From assembly GCA_030591525.1 (NCBI GenBank), contig JAUVAV010000007.1:23198-87197 (forward strand): DNA of 64,000 bases. The letters are read 5' to 3'. This document shows positions 15,401 to 55,897 of this stretch, piece by piece. Source of the DNA: a candidate division FCPU426 bacterium (GTDB lineage: Bacteria > Oederibacteriota > JAAXVQ01 > JAUVAV01). The notes beneath the pieces were generated by a model. The model searched no databases. It had not been told where the DNA came from and saw only the letters and a program-made list of their open reading frames with translations. A program made the position numbers and the translations under genes. Each line of letters starts with the position of its first letter. Position 1 is the first letter of the stretch.

Positions 15401-16201
15401 TTATTTTGACGGCCAGAACATCTCAATTACTTCCGCCTCCGCGGGTGGAGTAAAATTAAACCAGGCAGAAGACATTGGGTTATAATTAATCTTCACATTT
15501 CCAAATTCCACCTGGACACGCCGCGCGGCCTCAATCTCCATGCGGCAAGGCAACAAGTATTTTCCTCCCAGCCAAAGCAGTACCCGCGTAAACCCCAAGG
15601 CCTCTCCCTCTCTGGGAATCAGCTCATACTGCCGGATTCCATTTTTTTTAACATCAGCAGCCAGGCGTTTTACCCGGCATTGCGAAATAAGTTTCGGCAA
15701 ACCGCCGCCCAGCTCCAGAAAAATATCATTAGGCTCCAGGACTGAAGGCAGCGCCTGGATCTGAACCTGGTTGATTTTTTCGAGGTAAAGCCAGCGCTTG
15801 GTCCCATCGGAAACCAAGAGCTGGCGTTCCGGCTGCTCATACTGTACGCGGTAGCGGCGGCCGGAAGCCAGCCAAACTTTGCCCTGGGCCGCAAAATCCT
15901 GTCCCGCCCGGGCCGCACCGATAATTTTAAAGGAAAAGTCGGCGGTTAAATTTTTTATCGCTTGCTGAGCTGTGGTTATTTCATCAGCCGCTGGGCTCGG
16001 CCTAACCGGCAGACCGGCGGGCTGATCCGGCCGGGGAGCAGCCGTGACTGCCGGCGTCGCCTGCTCCGGCGTGGAATGGCTCTGCCCGGGCCGGTCCGGG
16101 GTTTTCGGCATTGTGGGAGTAAGCCCGGGTTTTCGGCCCGCACCTGTCCCCATCAGCAATAAACCCAGTATTGCCACGCCCCACACCCGCTTGGCAATCA
16201 T
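15401..16201 (-). CDS. LolA-like outer-membrane lipoprotein carrier with Pro-rich N-terminal linker
   Basis: LTADFSFKI...QGKVWLASGRRYRVQYEQPERQLLVSDGTKRWLYLEKINQVQIQ. Confidence 0.85.
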   Translation of the reverse strand: MIAKRVWGVAILGLLLMGTGAGRKPGLTPTMPKTPDRPGQSHSTPEQATPAVTAAPRPDQPAGLPVRPSPAADEITTAQQAIKNLTADFSFKIIGAARAGQDFAAQGKVWLASGRRYRVQYEQPERQLLVSDGTKRWLYLEKINQVQIQALPSVLEPNDIFLELGGGLPKLISQCRVKRLAADVKKNGIRQYELIPREGEALGFTRVLLWLGGKYLLPCRMEIEAARRVQVEFGNVKINYNPMSSAWFNFTPPAEAEVIEMFWPSK

Positions 16202-18606
16202 GCTTCCTCCCTGGCATCTCCGGACTGGATTCCCGCTTCTTCCGGCTGGACCAATACCCGGCGGGGACGGCTTCCTTCCGGCGGTCCGACAACTCCATTT
16301 TCTTCCATCTTATCCAGCAGGCGGGCGGCCCGGGAATAACCTACCTTAAGCCGGCGCTGCAGCATAGAGGTACTGGCCTGTTTGGCGCGTACTACCCAGG
16401 CCACGGCCTGTTCATAAAGATCATCCTCCGTTGCTCCGCCTTCCAGGCCGATGCTGCCCGTTTTCAGCCTGGCACTGGAAAATTCCGGATCAAAGACCGG
16501 GGTCCCTTGTTTTCTCCAAAAATCCGCAATCCTATCAACCTCAGCCGTAGTGACAAAAACTCCCTGGACCCGCAGCGGCTTGCCGGCCGAAGCCGGAGCA
16601 TACAGCATATCTCCGCGGCCCAGCAAGGCATCCGCGCCATTGGCATCAAGGATGGTTCGGGAGTCCACCTTGGAGGAAACTTGAAAAGCTATGCGCGACG
16701 GAAAATTAGCTTTGATTACGCCGGTAATTACATCGACCGAGGGACGCTGAGTAGCCAATACCATATGTATGCCCACTCCCCGGGCCATTTGCGCCAAACG
16801 GGTAATCGTGCTTTCGACTTCATTGGCTGACACCAGCATCAAATCCGCAAGTTCATCGATAAATACTATGATATAAGGCATATGCGAAGGCGCCGGCCCT
16901 AAGGCCGCGCATTCTTCCGGTTCCATAGTTTGGCGTTCCGCCGCCTCGGCCGCTACTTGCCGGTTATAATCAACAATGCTTCGAACCCCCATGGCGGCGA
17001 AAAGCTTGTAGCGTTCCTCCATTTCCCGGACCAAAAGCTTCAAGGCCATGGCCGCTTCCCGGCTGTCGGTAATCACCGGACTCTTCAAATGCGGAATGCC
17101 GTTGTAATTGGTTAATTCCACCCGCTTGGGATCAATCATAAGAAATTTTACCTGCTCCGGCGTGGCCCGATAGAGCAAACTACTGATAATGGCATTAATA
17201 CACGCGCTCTTGCCTGAACCGGTAGCGCCGGCGATAAGCAGATGGGGCATGCTCTCAAGCTGCGCCAGGATCTGCCGGCCTCCGATGTCTTTTCCGACCG
17301 CAAAGGTTAAAATCGAATCGGAAGCAGTGAATCCTTCAATAGCCAGCATTTCCTTTAAAACCACCACCTGCTTCTGCTGATTGGGAATTTCAATCCCCAC
17401 CGCGCCCTTGCCCGGTATAGGCGCCTCAATGCGCACATGCTCGGCACGCATAGCCAGGGCTATATCATCTCCCAAAGAAATGATCCGGTTGACTTTTACG
17501 CCCGGAGAAGGCTGCAGTTCATACCGCGTAACCACCGGCCCGGGACAAACTTCCACCACTCGGGCCTCCACTCCAAACTGACTTAGGGCTTGCTCCAGCG
17601 TCCGGCTCATGTTTTGGAAATATTCATCCGAAATCGCAGAATTCTCTTGGGGAGCGTTGAGCATTTCCAAACCCGGCAGGGAGTAATTTTTATTTTCCCG
17701 GCAGCATGAATCGGTCTTTTCCACGGACAGGAAATTTGACATATCGGCTTCAGCCTTGGCCGCCCTGATTTTAATCGGCGGACGTTCCTCTGTCCTGCTG
17801 TCAGCCTGCTCGCTGCCCGGTGAAAGACGGCCGGCTCTAACCGGGCTTGAGGAGGAAGCTCGATTAGTATCCGGCGATGAGCAAGATTTCCGGCGGCCGG
17901 CATAATCAAATTGAGACCGCGAAGCTTGACGGGTTTTTTTCATCACGTCGCGCATATAACCTATCCCGCGCCGCAATACTTTAACCAGATAAGGCTCTGC
18001 TTCCAACAGGTAAAGAGAGATCACCAATATGGTTCCGCAGATAATGTAAGCTCCCACCGTGGAGAATACGGTAACCGTCAGGCTTTCCAGGCGGTCGGCT
18101 ATCAATCCCCCGGCCGGTATAGAAATCTCACCCCACACTCTGAAAATCTTGGGAAGGCTTTTCCAAAAAACCCCGGCGCCTTCCCAGGTATAAAATTGTT
18201 TAACCATGGCCAGGTGAATAGTCCGGGCATGGATTAGTTCTACCAATATCCCCAAAGCCAAGACCGCTAGTATCAAACCCAGCATTTTAAAGGGCGCTCT
18301 TTCAATCCGGCTGGCTTTAAATACCAGGAATCCATAAACCAGGGTTCCCGCCGGCAGCAGGTAAATCAATACGCCCATCAAGGCAAAACCTATTCTAAAC
18401 ATAATTTCGCCGCTGGGACCTAAAGCATTCTGCCCGGCGGAGTGCGGCCAAATGGCAACGAGCAGTAGAAGGCTCAGCGCCCACCAGGCAATAGCTTTAA
18501 TCTCATTGCGGCGCCGGCCGGAAAATATTTCCCGCAGGGTAATCCGGCCGGACACGTTTTGTTTCGCTTGCTTTTTTTTTCTGATACGTGCAAATAGAAC
18601 CCGCAT
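16198..18606 (-). CDS. ftsK: DNA translocase FtsK
   Basis: N-terminal TMs; HLLIAGATGSGKSACINAIISSLL; FIDELADLM; LATQRPSVDVITGVIKANFPSRIAFQVSSKVDSRTILD; winged-helix C-terminus. Confidence 0.97.
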   Translation of the reverse strand: MRVLFARIRKKKQAKQNVSGRITLREIFSGRRRNEIKAIAWWALSLLLLVAIWPHSAGQNALGPSGEIMFRIGFALMGVLIYLLPAGTLVYGFLVFKASRIERAPFKMLGLILAVLALGILVELIHARTIHLAMVKQFYTWEGAGVFWKSLPKIFRVWGEISIPAGGLIADRLESLTVTVFSTVGAYIICGTILVISLYLLEAEPYLVKVLRRGIGYMRDVMKKTRQASRSQFDYAGRRKSCSSPDTNRASSSSPVRAGRLSPGSEQADSRTEERPPIKIRAAKAEADMSNFLSVEKTDSCCRENKNYSLPGLEMLNAPQENSAISDEYFQNMSRTLEQALSQFGVEARVVEVCPGPVVTRYELQPSPGVKVNRIISLGDDIALAMRAEHVRIEAPIPGKGAVGIEIPNQQKQVVVLKEMLAIEGFTASDSILTFAVGKDIGGRQILAQLESMPHLLIAGATGSGKSACINAIISSLLYRATPEQVKFLMIDPKRVELTNYNGIPHLKSPVITDSREAAMALKLLVREMEERYKLFAAMGVRSIVDYNRQVAAEAAERQTMEPEECAALGPAPSHMPYIIVFIDELADLMLVSANEVESTITRLAQMARGVGIHMVLATQRPSVDVITGVIKANFPSRIAFQVSSKVDSRTILDANGADALLGRGDMLYAPASAGKPLRVQGVFVTTAEVDRIADFWRKQGTPVFDPEFSSARLKTGSIGLEGGATEDDLYEQAVAWVVRAKQASTSMLQRRLKVGYSRAARLLDKMEENGVVGPPEGSRPRRVLVQPEEAGIQSGDAREEA

Positions 18607-18615
18607 AATAAATAT

Positions 18616-20292
18616 TTAGACCTCCATAATGACCGGAATGATCATGGGAAAGCGCATTATTTCTTTCTTAAAGTATCTTTTTAAAGCACTGCGCACCTGA
18701 TCCTGCAGCACCGGAATATCCAAAATACCTTCCATGGTTTCCTGGCTAAGCACTTCCTGCAAGATCGTCACTGCTCCCTCGGTCAGGCGCGCCGTCTCAT
18801 GTCCGTCCGCAATGCCACGCGTGATCAAGTCCGGTCCGGACAACAAGGCTCCGGTCTGCCGGTTCAGACCCAGTATTGCCACCACCATGCCGTCCTCTGA
18901 CAGATGCTGGCGATCCCGAAGGACTATGTGACCAACATCGCCTACGCTTTTGCCATCCACCAGAACATTTCCGGCGCTCACCTTTCCAGCCCGTCGCAAA
19001 GTTTCACGGGTTAGCTCCGCCCGGTCGCCGTTTTCCAGAATTAATATCTTATCTTCCGGCATTCCCAGTTCACGTGCCAGTTCGGCGTGATGATAGAGAT
19101 GGCGGGTTTCTCCATGGATCGGAATAAAATGCCGGGGACGAATAATATTATGCATGATTTTCAGTTCTTCCCGCGCGGCGTGCCCGGAAACATGAATTTC
19201 ACTTACCCGCTCATAATGCACCCGGCAGCCTAAACGAAATAAACGGTTGATCATGTTTCCTATACGGCGCTCATTACCGGGTATGGTCCGGGCCGAGATA
19301 ATCACGGTATCCCCGGGCTTAAGTTTCAGGTCCCGGTTCTCACCGACCGCAGCCCGGGCTAACGCCGATTTCGGCTCACCCTGGCTGCCGGTAGTCATTA
19401 CCACGGTTTTCTCGGAAGGAAGTTTTAGCAGATCATTCCAGGTCCGCCAAAGATTTTCAGGAATCTGAAGATAACCCAGTTCCTGCGCCGTACGCATGTT
19501 TTTCACCATACTCCGGCCCAGTACTCCCAAAGAGCGCTGGTAGCGCACCGTAGTATTGGCCACCTGCTGAAAGCGATGGATATTACTGGAAAAACACGCG
19601 ATTACCACCCGTTGCGGAGCGTCCCGGATAATTTCATCAAAAGCCACTCCGACTTCCCGTTCTGAAAGCGTATACCCGGCACGTTCTACATTGGTGGAAT
19701 CCGCCAATAAGATATCCACTCCCCGCCGGCCTAGTTCGCCGAACTTGCCCAGATCAGTGAATTCGTTGTTCAGCGGCGTGGGATCAAGTTTGAAATCACC
19801 GGTATGGACTATCAGTCCTGCGGGCGTGGTTATTCCCAAACCGATCCCATCTACAATGGAATGGGCCACCGGTATGAATTCCAGTTGAAACGGCCCCAAG
19901 GTCAAACTTCCGCCGGCCTTAATTTCATGCAAGGAGACCTCGCCCGGCAGATTATGCTCTTCCAGTTTATTTCGTACCATACCCAGGGTCATCCGCGTCC
20001 CATAAACCGGCACTAATAATTGCCGAAGGACATACGGCAACGCCCCGACATGATCTTCGTGGCCATGCGTGAGAATAATTCCCAATACCCGGTCACGGTT
20101 TTCCAGTAAAAAGGAAATATCCGGGATAATAAAATCAATTCCCGGTTGATCCTCGGTGGGAAAAGTCATGCCTGCATCCACCACCAATATCCGGCCCCCG
20201 CAATCCAGGGCCAGCATATTTTTTCCAATTTCACCAAGTCCGCCTAAGGGAATTAACGCGCAAGTCGTTTCCTCTTTCAATCCAATCTCCAA
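18616..20292 (-). CDS. rnj: Ribonuclease J
   Basis: ILTHGHEDHVGALPYVLRQL; HTGDFKLD; SGHAAREELKIMHNIIRPRHFIPIHGE. Confidence 0.96.
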   Translation of the reverse strand: MEIGLKEETTCALIPLGGLGEIGKNMLALDCGGRILVVDAGMTFPTEDQPGIDFIIPDISFLLENRDRVLGIILTHGHEDHVGALPYVLRQLLVPVYGTRMTLGMVRNKLEEHNLPGEVSLHEIKAGGSLTLGPFQLEFIPVAHSIVDGIGLGITTPAGLIVHTGDFKLDPTPLNNEFTDLGKFGELGRRGVDILLADSTNVERAGYTLSEREVGVAFDEIIRDAPQRVVIACFSSNIHRFQQVANTTVRYQRSLGVLGRSMVKNMRTAQELGYLQIPENLWRTWNDLLKLPSEKTVVMTTGSQGEPKSALARAAVGENRDLKLKPGDTVIISARTIPGNERRIGNMINRLFRLGCRVHYERVSEIHVSGHAAREELKIMHNIIRPRHFIPIHGETRHLYHHAELARELGMPEDKILILENGDRAELTRETLRRAGKVSAGNVLVDGKSVGDVGHIVLRDRQHLSEDGMVVAILGLNRQTGALLSGPDLITRGIADGHETARLTEGAVTILQEVLSQETMEGILDIPVLQDQVRSALKRYFKKEIMRFPMIIPVIMEV

Positions 20293-20360: not shown

Positions 20361-20406
20361 GTAGGGGCGACGCATGCGTCGCCCCTACAACTGCCGGTGA
20401 TGCCAT
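20361..20406. repeat. Palindromic core of MITE family B
   Basis: gtaggggcgacgcatgcgtcgcccctac followed by aactgccggtgatgccataac; related cores at 20950, 50200, 52550, 58308. Confidence 0.75.
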
Positions 20407-20561
20407 AACAAACATTTAAATATTATTCCGGTAATGGCCGCTAATCATCCATACCAAATCCAAGTTTTGGTATTATATCAAAATGATCATCCAGAAGCCA
20501 AATAAAAAACCCGCCCAACCCAAAATGCTGTCTTGGGCCGAACGGATATTTAACCATAAAT

Positions 20562-20600
20562 AAAACAACGTAGAATGTTTTTTTCATTCTACGTTGTTTT
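20562..20600. terminator. Bidirectional intrinsic terminator
   Basis: Perfect 16-bp stem AAAACAACGTAGAATG / CATTCTACGTTGTTTT with 7-T loop, immediately downstream of the 24-aa ORF (minus strand). Confidence 0.85.
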
Positions 20601-20621
20601 ATTAAAACTATTACCGGTTTA

Positions 20622-20696
20622 TTATTTCTTTTTCTTTGCGGTCTTCTTGGCTGCTTTTTTTGTCGCCTTCTTCACAACCTTCTTCTTCGTAGCCAT
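20622..20696 (-). CDS. 24-aa Lys/Ala-rich histone-tail-like peptide
   Basis: ATG at 20696, TAA at 20622: MATKKKVVKKATKKAAKKTAKKKK. SD GAAGGGGG upstream, promoter at 20754-20782, terminator downstream. Not in the supplied ORF track. Confidence 0.75.
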   Translation of the reverse strand: MATKKKVVKKATKKAAKKTAKKKK

Positions 20697-20753
20697 TCGT
20701 GTTAATCCCCCTTCTCTATATAGTGGGTACTAAAATAAATCAAATACAATATA

Positions 20754-20782
20754 TAGTTATCAAAATATCTGTTTTTTGTCAA
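20754..20782 (-). promoter_or_regulatory. Sigma70-like promoter for the 24-aa Lys-rich peptide
   Basis: Minus strand TTGACA (20777-20782) - 17 nt - TAACTA (20754-20759) with an upstream TG. Confidence 0.6.
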
Positions 20783-20835: not shown

Positions 20836-20912
20836 CAGTAGGGGCCGCCTTCCATGCCGGCTCATGAATTTTACGTCGTACGGGCGGGCAGACACGGAAG
20901 TCCGCCCCTACG
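20836..20912. repeat. Palindromic repeats of the GTAGGGGC...GCCCCTAC type
   Basis: gtaggggccgccttccatgccggctc and gggcgggcagacacggaagtccgcccctac. Confidence 0.7.
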
Positions 20913-20998
20913 AAAAACGTCATTATAACAAAGTATGCGAACGCCGAGGCGTTTAATTAAATGCCTCTGCCACTGCCGGTGATGCCATAACGTAAGGC

Positions 20999-22282
20999 TT
21001 ATATGCTGATATCCGGAAACGGTGTTTTGGGCAGGGGGCCGATCATGGCCGAGGTCATGGGAGCTTCCAGGAACAAATCACGGGCCAGGTCGAGAATATC
21101 CTGTTTGGAAATGCGGCCCAGCGCGCGCAGGACAGCGGGGATGCCGGCATGCTTCTGAAGATAATCCTCTTCCTGAAGCATCTGCCACATATGCGATGAC
21201 GAACTCTCCAGGGAAAGTAACAAACCGCCCTGCATTTGCTCACGAACATCATGCCATTCCTGGTCGGTGATCAGACGCGTGGAAATACTTCGTAATTCAT
21301 CGTGAACAATCTGCATGGCGTGTTTAAATTTTCGGGGGTGACAGGCCAGGTATACTCCCGCCGCTCCGGTATCGCGAAAAAAATCCATGAAAGAATAAAT
21401 GGAATAAGCCAGCGCTCTTCGCTCCCGTACCTCGTGAAACAAGCGCGAATTGGTGCCGGCCCCCAGAATGTTCGAGAGCGCCGCGGCTGTCAGCCGCCGT
21501 TTATCTTCATAGGGGAGCCCTTTAAATCCTATGCAGATATGCAATTGTTCAAGACGCCGATGCTCTTTCCGGGACTTAAAGGCCAGGGCCGCAACCGGTG
21601 GGCCGGGCTCGGCCCTCTCTTCTTGCTGAGCCGGCTTTCCGAAATATCGTTTTGCCAGTTTGCTTGCCTCCGCGGGCCGTACATTTCCGGCAATGGCCAG
21701 TATCAGGTTTGGAGGCTGGTAATGGCGCTGCAGATACTTGCGCAAATCGCGGCAGGTCACGTTTTTCAGTCCGGCCCGGGTTCCCAGAATCGGTCGCCCC
21801 AGCGGATGATTGGGCCAGAGGGCTTGGGCAAAACGGTCATGGATTAACTCGTCCGGCGCGTCTTCATACATTCTGATTTCCTCGAGAATAATCCGCTTCT
21901 CTTTTTCCAGGCTGCTGGAATTAAATCGGTAATTGGTTAGCATATCTGAAATTACATCCAGGGCCAGGGAAAGGTAGGAGGCCGGTACCTTGGCATAATA
22001 GGTGGTATTCTCACGGCCGGTACAGGCATCCAGATAACCGCCGACCGCGGTCAGTACCCGCGCGAGTTCGCGCATGCTCCGGCGCCGGGTTCCCTGGAAG
22101 AGCATATGCTCTATAAGATGGCTCCATCCCATTTCCTGCCGGGTTTCATCCCGGGAACCGGTTTTTACGCTCAGCCCAACGGAGACTGAAACCAGGCCGG
22201 GAAGCGGCTGGACCAGCAAGGTAAGTCCATTACTGAATACTTCCCGCTGTATAGGCTCAATCCGGTATTTAAGTGTTTGCAA
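20999..22282 (-). CDS. M16 family zinc peptidase (insulinase-like)
   Basis: GWSHLIEHMLFQGTRRRS contains HxxEH; M16 inactive-half domain at the C-terminus. Confidence 0.95.
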   Translation of the reverse strand: MQTLKYRIEPIQREVFSNGLTLLVQPLPGLVSVSVGLSVKTGSRDETRQEMGWSHLIEHMLFQGTRRRSMRELARVLTAVGGYLDACTGRENTTYYAKVPASYLSLALDVISDMLTNYRFNSSSLEKEKRIILEEIRMYEDAPDELIHDRFAQALWPNHPLGRPILGTRAGLKNVTCRDLRKYLQRHYQPPNLILAIAGNVRPAEASKLAKRYFGKPAQQEERAEPGPPVAALAFKSRKEHRRLEQLHICIGFKGLPYEDKRRLTAAALSNILGAGTNSRLFHEVRERRALAYSIYSFMDFFRDTGAAGVYLACHPRKFKHAMQIVHDELRSISTRLITDQEWHDVREQMQGGLLLSLESSSSHMWQMLQEEDYLQKHAGIPAVLRALGRISKQDILDLARDLFLEAPMTSAMIGPLPKTPFPDISI

Positions 22283-23684
22283 GGAGCCTGCGTCCCTCCC
22301 CGGCTAAACGCCTCAAGCCCTGCCTACTCCTTGCTTCCAGGTATAATCTGGCTACCGGCTCGGTACCTGATAAACGGATAGCCAGCCAGGTACCATCTTG
22401 TAAAAGGTATTTATAACCATCTGTATTGTCTATTGCCACCACCCGGCGCCCGGCTAATTTGTCCGGACGGTATTTATCCAGCCGCCGCCGCAATTTCAGC
22501 CCGGCCCCGGAGTTGGGCAATTGGACATTGACCCGGTCTGTTATTATGGTACCGACCCGTCTATGGATGGACTTCAATATGGCTCCCAGGCTCCGTTTTT
22601 CCCGGGCCACCAGTTCAGCCATTAGTAAGCAAGCTAAAATGCCGTCTTTTTCCGGGATATGATTGGCAATGGTCAGGCCGCCGCTCTCCTCTCCCCCGGC
22701 CAGAAAACCGCCCCTCAGCATACTCTCCCCAATATATTTAAATCCCACCGGCGTAACTTCGACCGGCAGGTTATGCTGCCCGGCCACGGCATCCACCAGA
22801 TGGCTGGTAACCACTGAACGCACCACGCGGCCGCGCCAGCCGCGATGCCGCACCAGTAAATATACGGTCAAAGCCAGAACCTCGTTGGGCGTAATATACG
22901 TTCCATCCGCGTCGATTACGCCAAAGCGGTCCGCGTCTCCGTCCGTGCCCAAGACCAGGCAAGAACCCTGCTTTTTCATAAGCCCTGCGGCTTCCCGCAG
23001 ATGCTCGGCATTCGGTTCCGGGGCGTTCCCGCCAAATAAGGTATCACGCCAATCATGCAATACTTCCACTCGGCAGCCGGCCCGGCGCAAGGCCTCTGCC
23101 AAATATCCCTGTCCGGCGCCGTAAAGAGGATCGGCTATGATTTTTAATTTGGCCCGGCGCAATATTGGCATAGCTGCCAGCTTATCAAGGCGCTTGAAAT
23201 AAGCCGGCTTGGGATCAAAAATAATAATCTTCCCTTGCCTAATTCCCCGGGGCGGCTTGCCGCCCCCCTGCGCCAACCAACGGTTGGCTTCTCTTTCAAT
23301 CGGCTGGACTTCCTCCTTGGTTGCCGGCCCGCCAAAAGCATTCGACCACTTGAATCCCTGATAAACCGCCGGATTGTGACTCGCGGTAAAATTAATACCG
23401 CCCGCCAATCCCAGATTCTGAATGCCCAGTGCCAGGGCCGGAGTAGGCGCCGGGCCTTCCACCAGGTGGACTGTGAGACCCTCTTCGCTGAGTATGACAG
23501 CGGCATGCCGGGAAAATTCCTCGGAAAGGAACCGCGGATCATGCCCGATTAACACCCCGCGGCTTGCCAGCCGCCGGGCTTTTAAGTAACGGGCCACTGC
23601 CCGGGTAACTGCCGTTACTTTACTGAAAGTAAATCCATCCGCAATAATATCACGCCACCCGGAAGTCCCGAATTTAATGCTCAC
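22269..23684 (-). CDS. Phosphoglucomutase/phosphomannomutase
   Basis: FGTSGWRDI; INFTASHNPAVYQGFKWS; LGTDGDADRFGVID; AGGEESGGL; RLSGTEPVARLYLEA. Confidence 0.95.
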   Translation of the reverse strand: MSIKFGTSGWRDIIADGFTFSKVTAVTRAVARYLKARRLASRGVLIGHDPRFLSEEFSRHAAVILSEEGLTVHLVEGPAPTPALALGIQNLGLAGGINFTASHNPAVYQGFKWSNAFGGPATKEEVQPIEREANRWLAQGGGKPPRGIRQGKIIIFDPKPAYFKRLDKLAAMPILRRAKLKIIADPLYGAGQGYLAEALRRAGCRVEVLHDWRDTLFGGNAPEPNAEHLREAAGLMKKQGSCLVLGTDGDADRFGVIDADGTYITPNEVLALTVYLLVRHRGWRGRVVRSVVTSHLVDAVAGQHNLPVEVTPVGFKYIGESMLRGGFLAGGEESGGLTIANHIPEKDGILACLLMAELVAREKRSLGAILKSIHRRVGTIITDRVNVQLPNSGAGLKLRRRLDKYRPDKLAGRRVVAIDNTDGYKYLLQDGTWLAIRLSGTEPVARLYLEARSRQGLRRLAGEGRRLLANT

Positions 23685-51157: not shown

Positions 51158-51180
51158 AATTTCACCTCCTGATTTTATTT

Positions 51181-51291
51181 AAAAAAAAAGCGGATGATAA
51201 TATCATCCGCTTTTTCAGACCTTAATCTCCAGGAAATTTATCCCCAGCCCGGACTGGCTGCCTAAGGCGCCGCCGGGCGAGAAGCGGATGC
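51181..51291 (-). promoter_or_regulatory. Attenuator-like leader of infC-rpmI-rplT
   Basis: Transcript order: CATCCGCTT (51290-51282), AAGCGGATG (51212-51204), CATCCGCTT (51196-51188), then a run of 9 U; terminator hairpin AAAAAGCGGATGA/UCAUCCGCUUUUU. Confidence 0.65.
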
Positions 51292-51428
51292 TTCTGCTTT
51301 ATATATCCCTATTTTTAGGATATTTTCACTTTTGCTTAAATATACGGACAAAAAACAGAAATGTCAAGGTTAAAAATGTAGGGGCGGGTTTCAAAGCCGC
51401 CCCTAGAGGAGGGGACGGTTGTCTCCTG

Positions 51429-55746: not shown

Positions 55747-55758
55747 ATTAATTAAAAA

Positions 55759-55883
55759 CGCCTTCTCCCTTCCCGACTTTAACGGTCGGCCCCGGAATTA
55801 CACCGGATCAATTCCCGATTAATATAACAGCCGGGAACTCGCGGGCTTTCACCGCCGGTGGGGACTCTCACCCCGCCCCGAAG
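55759..55883 (-). promoter_or_regulatory. FMN riboswitch (RFN element)
   Basis: CTTCGGGGCGGGGTGAGAGTCCCCACCGGCGGTGAAAGCCCGCGAGTTCCC...GATCCGGTGTAATTCCGGGGCCGACCGTTAAAGTCGGGAAGGGAGAAGGCG. Confidence 0.95.
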
Positions 55884-55897
55884 ACTTAAATGATTTG

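Follow-up and report, generated by a model that had tools for sequence, protein, structure and literature searches.

Our comparative analysis shows that the window, that is, the whole stretch of 64,000 nucleotides considered here, carries on its minus strand a micro-gene for a protein of only 24 amino acids, MATKKKVVKKATKKAAKKTAKKKK, made up of 13 Lys, five Ala, three Thr, two Val and one Met. The micro-ORF is almost certainly a coding gene under selection, and we consider it probable that it is an independently transcribed member of a phylum-wide family of polycations resembling histone H1 tails. A preliminary description, made from the sequence alone, had proposed a stand-alone gene for a complete Lys-rich micro-protein, which is borne out by its own promoter, Shine-Dalgarno (SD) site and terminator and by conserved Lys-rich orthologues. 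The length of 24 residues and the Ala/Thr/Val remainder given there were right, but the Lys count of 14 was one too high. The source genome (2.7 Mb, 91 contigs) was compared with a group of 45 genomes that cluster with the window, hereafter called the phylum and divided into families f1 to f16. The micro-gene and its neighbours are arranged as follows (window coordinates).

22269..23684, minus strand: phosphoglucomutase/phosphomannomutase gene, upstream syntenic anchor (Pfam, synteny)
20999..22282, minus strand: M16 peptidase gene, upstream neighbour (Pfam, synteny)
20777..20782, minus strand: -35 element TTGACA (sequence; TTGAC kept in all f1 and f2 orthologues)
20754..20759, minus strand: -10 element TAACTA, preceded by TGA (extended -10), spacer of 17 (sequence)
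20707..20714, minus strand: SD site GAAGGGGG, 10 nt before the ATG
20622..20696, minus strand: micro-ORF for MATKKKVVKKATKKAAKKTAKKKK, from the ATG at 20696 to the end of the stop codon at 20622 (orthologues, codon test)
20560..20602, minus strand: terminator hairpin with stem AAAACAACGTAGAATG/CATTCTACGTTGTTTT (fold, covariation)
20509..20547, minus strand: second, tandem intrinsic terminator, insulating the downstream RNase J gene
20472..20501, minus strand: separate RNase J promoter-like site, TTGGCT-N18-TATAAT, with TG before the -10 (sequence)
18616..20292, minus strand: RNase J gene, downstream syntenic neighbour (Pfam, synteny)
16198..18606, minus strand: FtsK/SpoIIIE gene, syntenic anchor in other families (Pfam, synteny)

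The TTGACA-N17-TAACTA promoter that had been described lies at 20782-20777 and 20759-20754. Its -10 box is weak by itself, and the TAACTA element was not reported by a sigma-70 scan, but it is conserved within family f1; f10, f13 and f14 have TATACT instead. The promoter block TATTTTGRTAAC is invariant over seven f1/f2 genomes except for one site that varies between G and A. The proposed SD site is likewise present, and a purine-rich SD occurs at the equivalent position in all orthologues. As to the 16-bp stem described just past the stop codon (20562-20577/20585-20600), folding extends it to 19 pairs, with -23 kcal/mol and z = -10, and none of 200 shuffled sequences was equally stable. The intergenic region shared with the micro-gene also contains a perfect palindrome, GTAGGGGCGACGCATGCGTCGCCCCTAC, at 20362-20389, and GTAGGGGC-like sequences, which look like a dispersed repeat, recur near 20838-20915. 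Elsewhere in the window, an FMN riboswitch (55756-55889, minus strand) and a ribosomal protein L20 leader (51176-51305, minus strand) score above their Rfam gathering scores.

Searches of Pfam and NCBIfam up to E = 10 and of the PDB gave no match to the micro-ORF product, and the Pfam search did not find the HU/IHF domain PF00216 in it. A protein search with MATKKKVVKKATKKAAKKTAKKKK in 97 genomes returned only the query itself and one weak match within a longer protein. Low-complexity scoring hides such genes from protein searches, whereas DNA and covariance-model searches recover them. We also retrieved orthologues without any reference to Lys, by searching the 45 genomes of the phylum for the terminator stem ACAACRNRG-N(0-26)-CYNYGTTGTTTT. 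This stem occurs essentially once per genome, in six f1 genomes, in the f2 genome G006, in four f10 genomes and in two f14 genomes, and an intact Lys-rich micro-ORF immediately precedes it in all 13. The only other matches, one in G038 and an additional one in G032, have no relation to the micro-gene, and a generic or dispersed terminator repeat can thus be rejected. Since many other members of the family were found through their Lys-rich sequence, these 13 ORFs are the sole unbiased sample.

After the Met, the 13 ORFs comprise 233 codons, which encode 148 Lys, 49 Ala, 21 Val and 15 Thr and nothing else, hence neither Arg nor acidic residues. Every one of the 148 purine-only codons is AAR: G occupies the first, second and third positions in 0, 0 and 64 of them, which would have a probability of ~1e-20 if purine content alone were maintained (a rough figure, from pooled composition and related sequences). 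Third bases of the fourfold codons are mixed. As the purine-only codons vary at their third base alone, it is the amino-acid sequence that is under selection. A pair of genomes from the same genus differs in six codons, three of them synonymous and three exchanging Val, Thr or Ala, and in length by six bases, and the 42-aa version of G002 consists of KKKVA-like repeat units whose codons differ synonymously. These patterns show that selection maintains the composition and the arrangement in blocks but leaves the length free. Frameshifts and non-synonymous drift, named in the preliminary description as evidence that would speak against a gene, are not what the comparison reveals: there are no frameshifts, Lys blocks are conserved, Lys codons change synonymously and elsewhere only Ala, Val and Thr replace one another. 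Among the ORFs of 11-61 aa in the window, none but the micro-ORF and the version from its internal GTG start attains a Lys content of 50%, and 64-kb sequences simulated 60 times with a first-order Markov model contained no such ORF; conservation across genomes is far stronger evidence against chance than these simulations.

Across the phylum, searches with DNA and with covariance models located the micro-gene in all six f1 genomes and in G006, and similar micro-genes in many further families. Orthologues at the equivalent place exist in six families besides f1, within a conserved order phosphomannomutase - (M16 peptidase) - micro-gene - (RNase J) - FtsK. M16 peptidase and RNase J genes adjoin the micro-gene in f1, the former in f2 too, and in f4, f7, f10, f13 and f14 it still adjoins phosphomannomutase and/or FtsK. 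The exception is G001, which has a different upstream neighbour, with RNase J still downstream. Two extra orthologues, MATKKKKSKKK (11 aa, G026) and MAKKKGKDKDKKKK (G015), lie upstream of FtsK in genomes that had given no earlier match. Orthologues at this place range from 11 to 42 aa. By RNase J identity, the nearest named metagenome-assembled genomes are labelled Candidatus Firestonebacteria (93%), FCPU426 (73%) and Candidatus Goldiibacteriota (71%), labels that disagree; FCPU426 sequences have been argued to belong to Goldbacteria (PMC7031533). In the two nearest named relatives with the upstream region on the contig, the position of the gene is unchanged and the orthologues read MATKKVKKTVKKATKKAAKKATKKKK and MATKKKAKKVAKKKVAKKKK.

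Several families contain more than one locus per genome. The second locus of f1 has the order cyclophilin - micro-gene - pyrR-like - aspartate carbamoyltransferase, and in the source genome its product is MAVKKKAAKKVVKKAAKKVAKKKATKKK.

G000:C57:93515-93601 (L053:2016-2102), minus strand: second Lys-rich micro-gene of the source genome, 28 aa, with SD AAAGGAGGTG and a strong terminator, between a cyclophilin-type PPIase gene and pyrR-like/pyrB

The cyclophilin neighbour is found in G002, G004 and G005 as well. In f2, a similar micro-gene precedes YicC and an apparent guanylate kinase. A third class was noticed in f3, with a GTG start and the product VAKKAKKASKKKAKKGKKK (L118, L119 and L120, near position 1500), adjoining genes that, judged from the sequences by eye, appear to encode a flavodiiron protein and a thioredoxin reductase. 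Counting paralogues, at least one stand-alone Lys-rich micro-gene is present in at least 35 of the 45 genomes and in 14 of the 16 families, the weakest member of this tally being MATAKKKPAKGKKK in G018. For most micro-genes a strong terminator-like hairpin follows within 130 nt of the stop.

What could such a peptide do? Proteins with ~8 to 27 Lys and without hydrophobic segment or signal sequence should be disordered and bind polyanions, as expected from established chemistry. We infer that the product is expressed, stays in the cytosol and, judging from its composition, binds polyanions. It would be a complete, probably disordered polycation in which Lys blocks are spaced by one or two Ala, Val or Thr. 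Many copies of the peptide would together neutralise and bridge polyanions, namely chromosomal DNA and/or RNA and possibly polyphosphate, without sequence specificity, in a role like that of a free-standing histone-H1-type tail and as a genetically encoded "protein polyamine" beside HU. Length variation at fixed composition is as expected for a bulk-charge function, like that of H1-type tails, and the high charge and the lack of a family match count against the peptide being an enzyme or a folded domain. On these grounds, we favour nucleic-acid binding as the job of the peptide, although two observations count against this reading. Basic DNA packaging does not depend on the peptide, since the source genome has four copies of the HU gene, and a length of 11-12 aa, as in the smallest orthologues, leaves very little scope for stable non-specific binding. 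Of the 45 genomes, 43 encode HU, so that the peptide would supplement it; a replacement of HU was rejected for the same reason. HU/IHF (PF00216) is itself a basic nucleoid protein, but a folded dimer of 90 aa.

The closest known counterparts are the bacterial H1-like proteins, such as Chlamydia Hc1 and Hc2, Bordetella BpH1 and the tails of Pseudomonas AlgP and PhaF, in which Lys blocks are also spaced by Ala, Val or Thr. Common to both groups are units resembling pentamers, lengths that vary with the number of repeats, and presumed disorder and polyanion binding. The size of Hc2 varies by Lys-rich pentamers (PMC2848022), and AlgP-type KPAA peptides bind DNA in vitro (PMC9239181). The likeness to H1-type tails claimed at the outset is supported by the Lys/Ala-rich low complexity of the micro-proteins and by the occurrence of only K, A, V and T in the 13 ORFs retrieved blindly to Lys. 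By contrast, H1-like proteins have ~100-350 aa, often with a further domain, and match described family models, and AlgP possesses a separate N-terminal domain and Pro in its repeats, whereas the micro-proteins consist entirely of a single low-complexity segment of 11-44 aa, match no family model, are almost devoid of Pro and contain scarcely any Arg. Most likely, they would work like an H1-type tail while falling outside the H1-like proteins in size and family model. Protamine-like proteins are Arg-rich, a property absent from the 13 orthologues.

An exclusively protein-based reading does not account for everything. When 15 terminator sequences are compared, 99% of the 16-bp stem is paired, and in seven of its pairs both partners have changed (32 cells; shuffled mean 8, with none of 500 shuffles reaching the observed value). 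The upper pairs covary, while the lower eight are near-invariant in sequence. As the stem is unique in each genome, the constraint is gene-specific, and such conservation of primary sequence, which protein function alone leaves unexplained, counts against a purely protein reading. Termination in both directions, stability of the mRNA, a site for a protein or a further function of the RNA may lie behind it. Alternatively, although we consider it unlikely, the transcript might be dual-functional, with its RNA, chiefly the 3' hairpin, acting in trans or bound by a protein and the peptide as a second product. This would fit the restriction of the stem in four families to about one copy per genome, always at the micro-gene, as well as its near-constant lower pairs, and is compatible with the data and with a function of the peptide together. 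Nevertheless, the terminators of other families are quite unlike this one, selection clearly acts on the peptide, and a perfect palindrome could simply be a good two-way terminator. Nor do we claim a hairpin in the 5' UTR or leader, because single folds are plausible in several f1/f2 genomes but their covariation does not exceed that of shuffled sequences, which counts against this alternative too. In the 3' UTRs of f7 and f10 (L105, L103, L150 and L152), we observed a GGGGTAACAMCA-like motif between stop codon and terminator.

A second alternative, which seems to us quite unlikely, is a basic micro-protein of the size of eL41 or bTHX that would associate with the ribosome and bind rRNA. Eukaryotic eL41 and bacterial bTHX/Thx and bL36 are very small, highly basic proteins encoded by stand-alone genes, matching the micro-proteins in size and charge, and housekeeping genes lie near the micro-gene, including RNase J in f1. 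However, these ribosomal proteins have fixed, Arg-containing sequences to which the micro-proteins show no similarity, in agreement with the negative Pfam, NCBIfam and PDB searches. The lack of Arg and aromatic residues and a near-fourfold length range are unsuited to a defined rRNA site, and the micro-genes lie outside ribosomal operons.

We regard as highly improbable an attenuator in which the micro-ORF would serve as leader peptide, its Lys codons responding to Lys-tRNA or to stalled ribosomes and thereby governing the RNase J gene downstream. A short ORF rich in one residue and followed by a hairpin terminator recalls the his and trp leaders, and poly-Lys slows ribosomes (PMC9207662), which counts in favour of this idea. 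Unlike in those leaders, there is neither a conserved antiterminator nor a Lys-related downstream gene, such as one for Lys biosynthesis: in most of 11 orthologues, with G004 and G032 as exceptions, upstream complements of the terminator arm are of chance length. The tandem terminators and the separate RNase J promoter-like site also led us to reject attenuation, FtsK comes next in other families, paralogues precede pyrR/pyrB or YicC, and selection acts on the Ala, Val and Thr residues too. The shortness and low complexity of the micro-ORF might suggest that purine-rich DNA has produced it spuriously, but Lys-blind conservation, phase-specific codon constraint, synteny and the simulations leave this reading practically no room.

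Returning to the free-standing polycation, we found no description of proteins of this kind in the open-access papers searched, nor in Pfam, NCBIfam or the PDB. Such micro-genes would mean that a segment normally found at the end of a larger chromatin protein can make up a whole gene, of as few as 11 residues, and be retained throughout a phylum. More tentatively, the micro-proteins might constitute a new protein class of 11-44 aa made almost only of Lys, Ala, Val and Thr, an encoded polyamine near-universal in one candidate phylum and sporadic elsewhere, to which in several families a gene-specific conserved mRNA hairpin would add a second, RNA-level function. Since the gene lies below usual gene-calling limits and trypsin shreds the peptide, both annotation and standard proteomics would miss the product. 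The natural series of 11, 12, 18, 24 and 42 aa can be synthesised and used to define the minimal requirements for biological nucleic-acid condensation. A strict pattern running from the SD to a KKK-stop has true examples, as judged by reading the matches, in 16 of the 45 genomes of the phylum against 5 of 339 other genomes (Fisher P ~1e-12), and the same class may thus have been overlooked in other bacteria. In the five genomes outside the phylum (L112, L113, L115, L117 and L139), we observed stand-alone Lys-rich micro-ORFs, for example MATKKKAKKAAKKKKK; each of them has an SD, and a terminator-like hairpin accompanies several.
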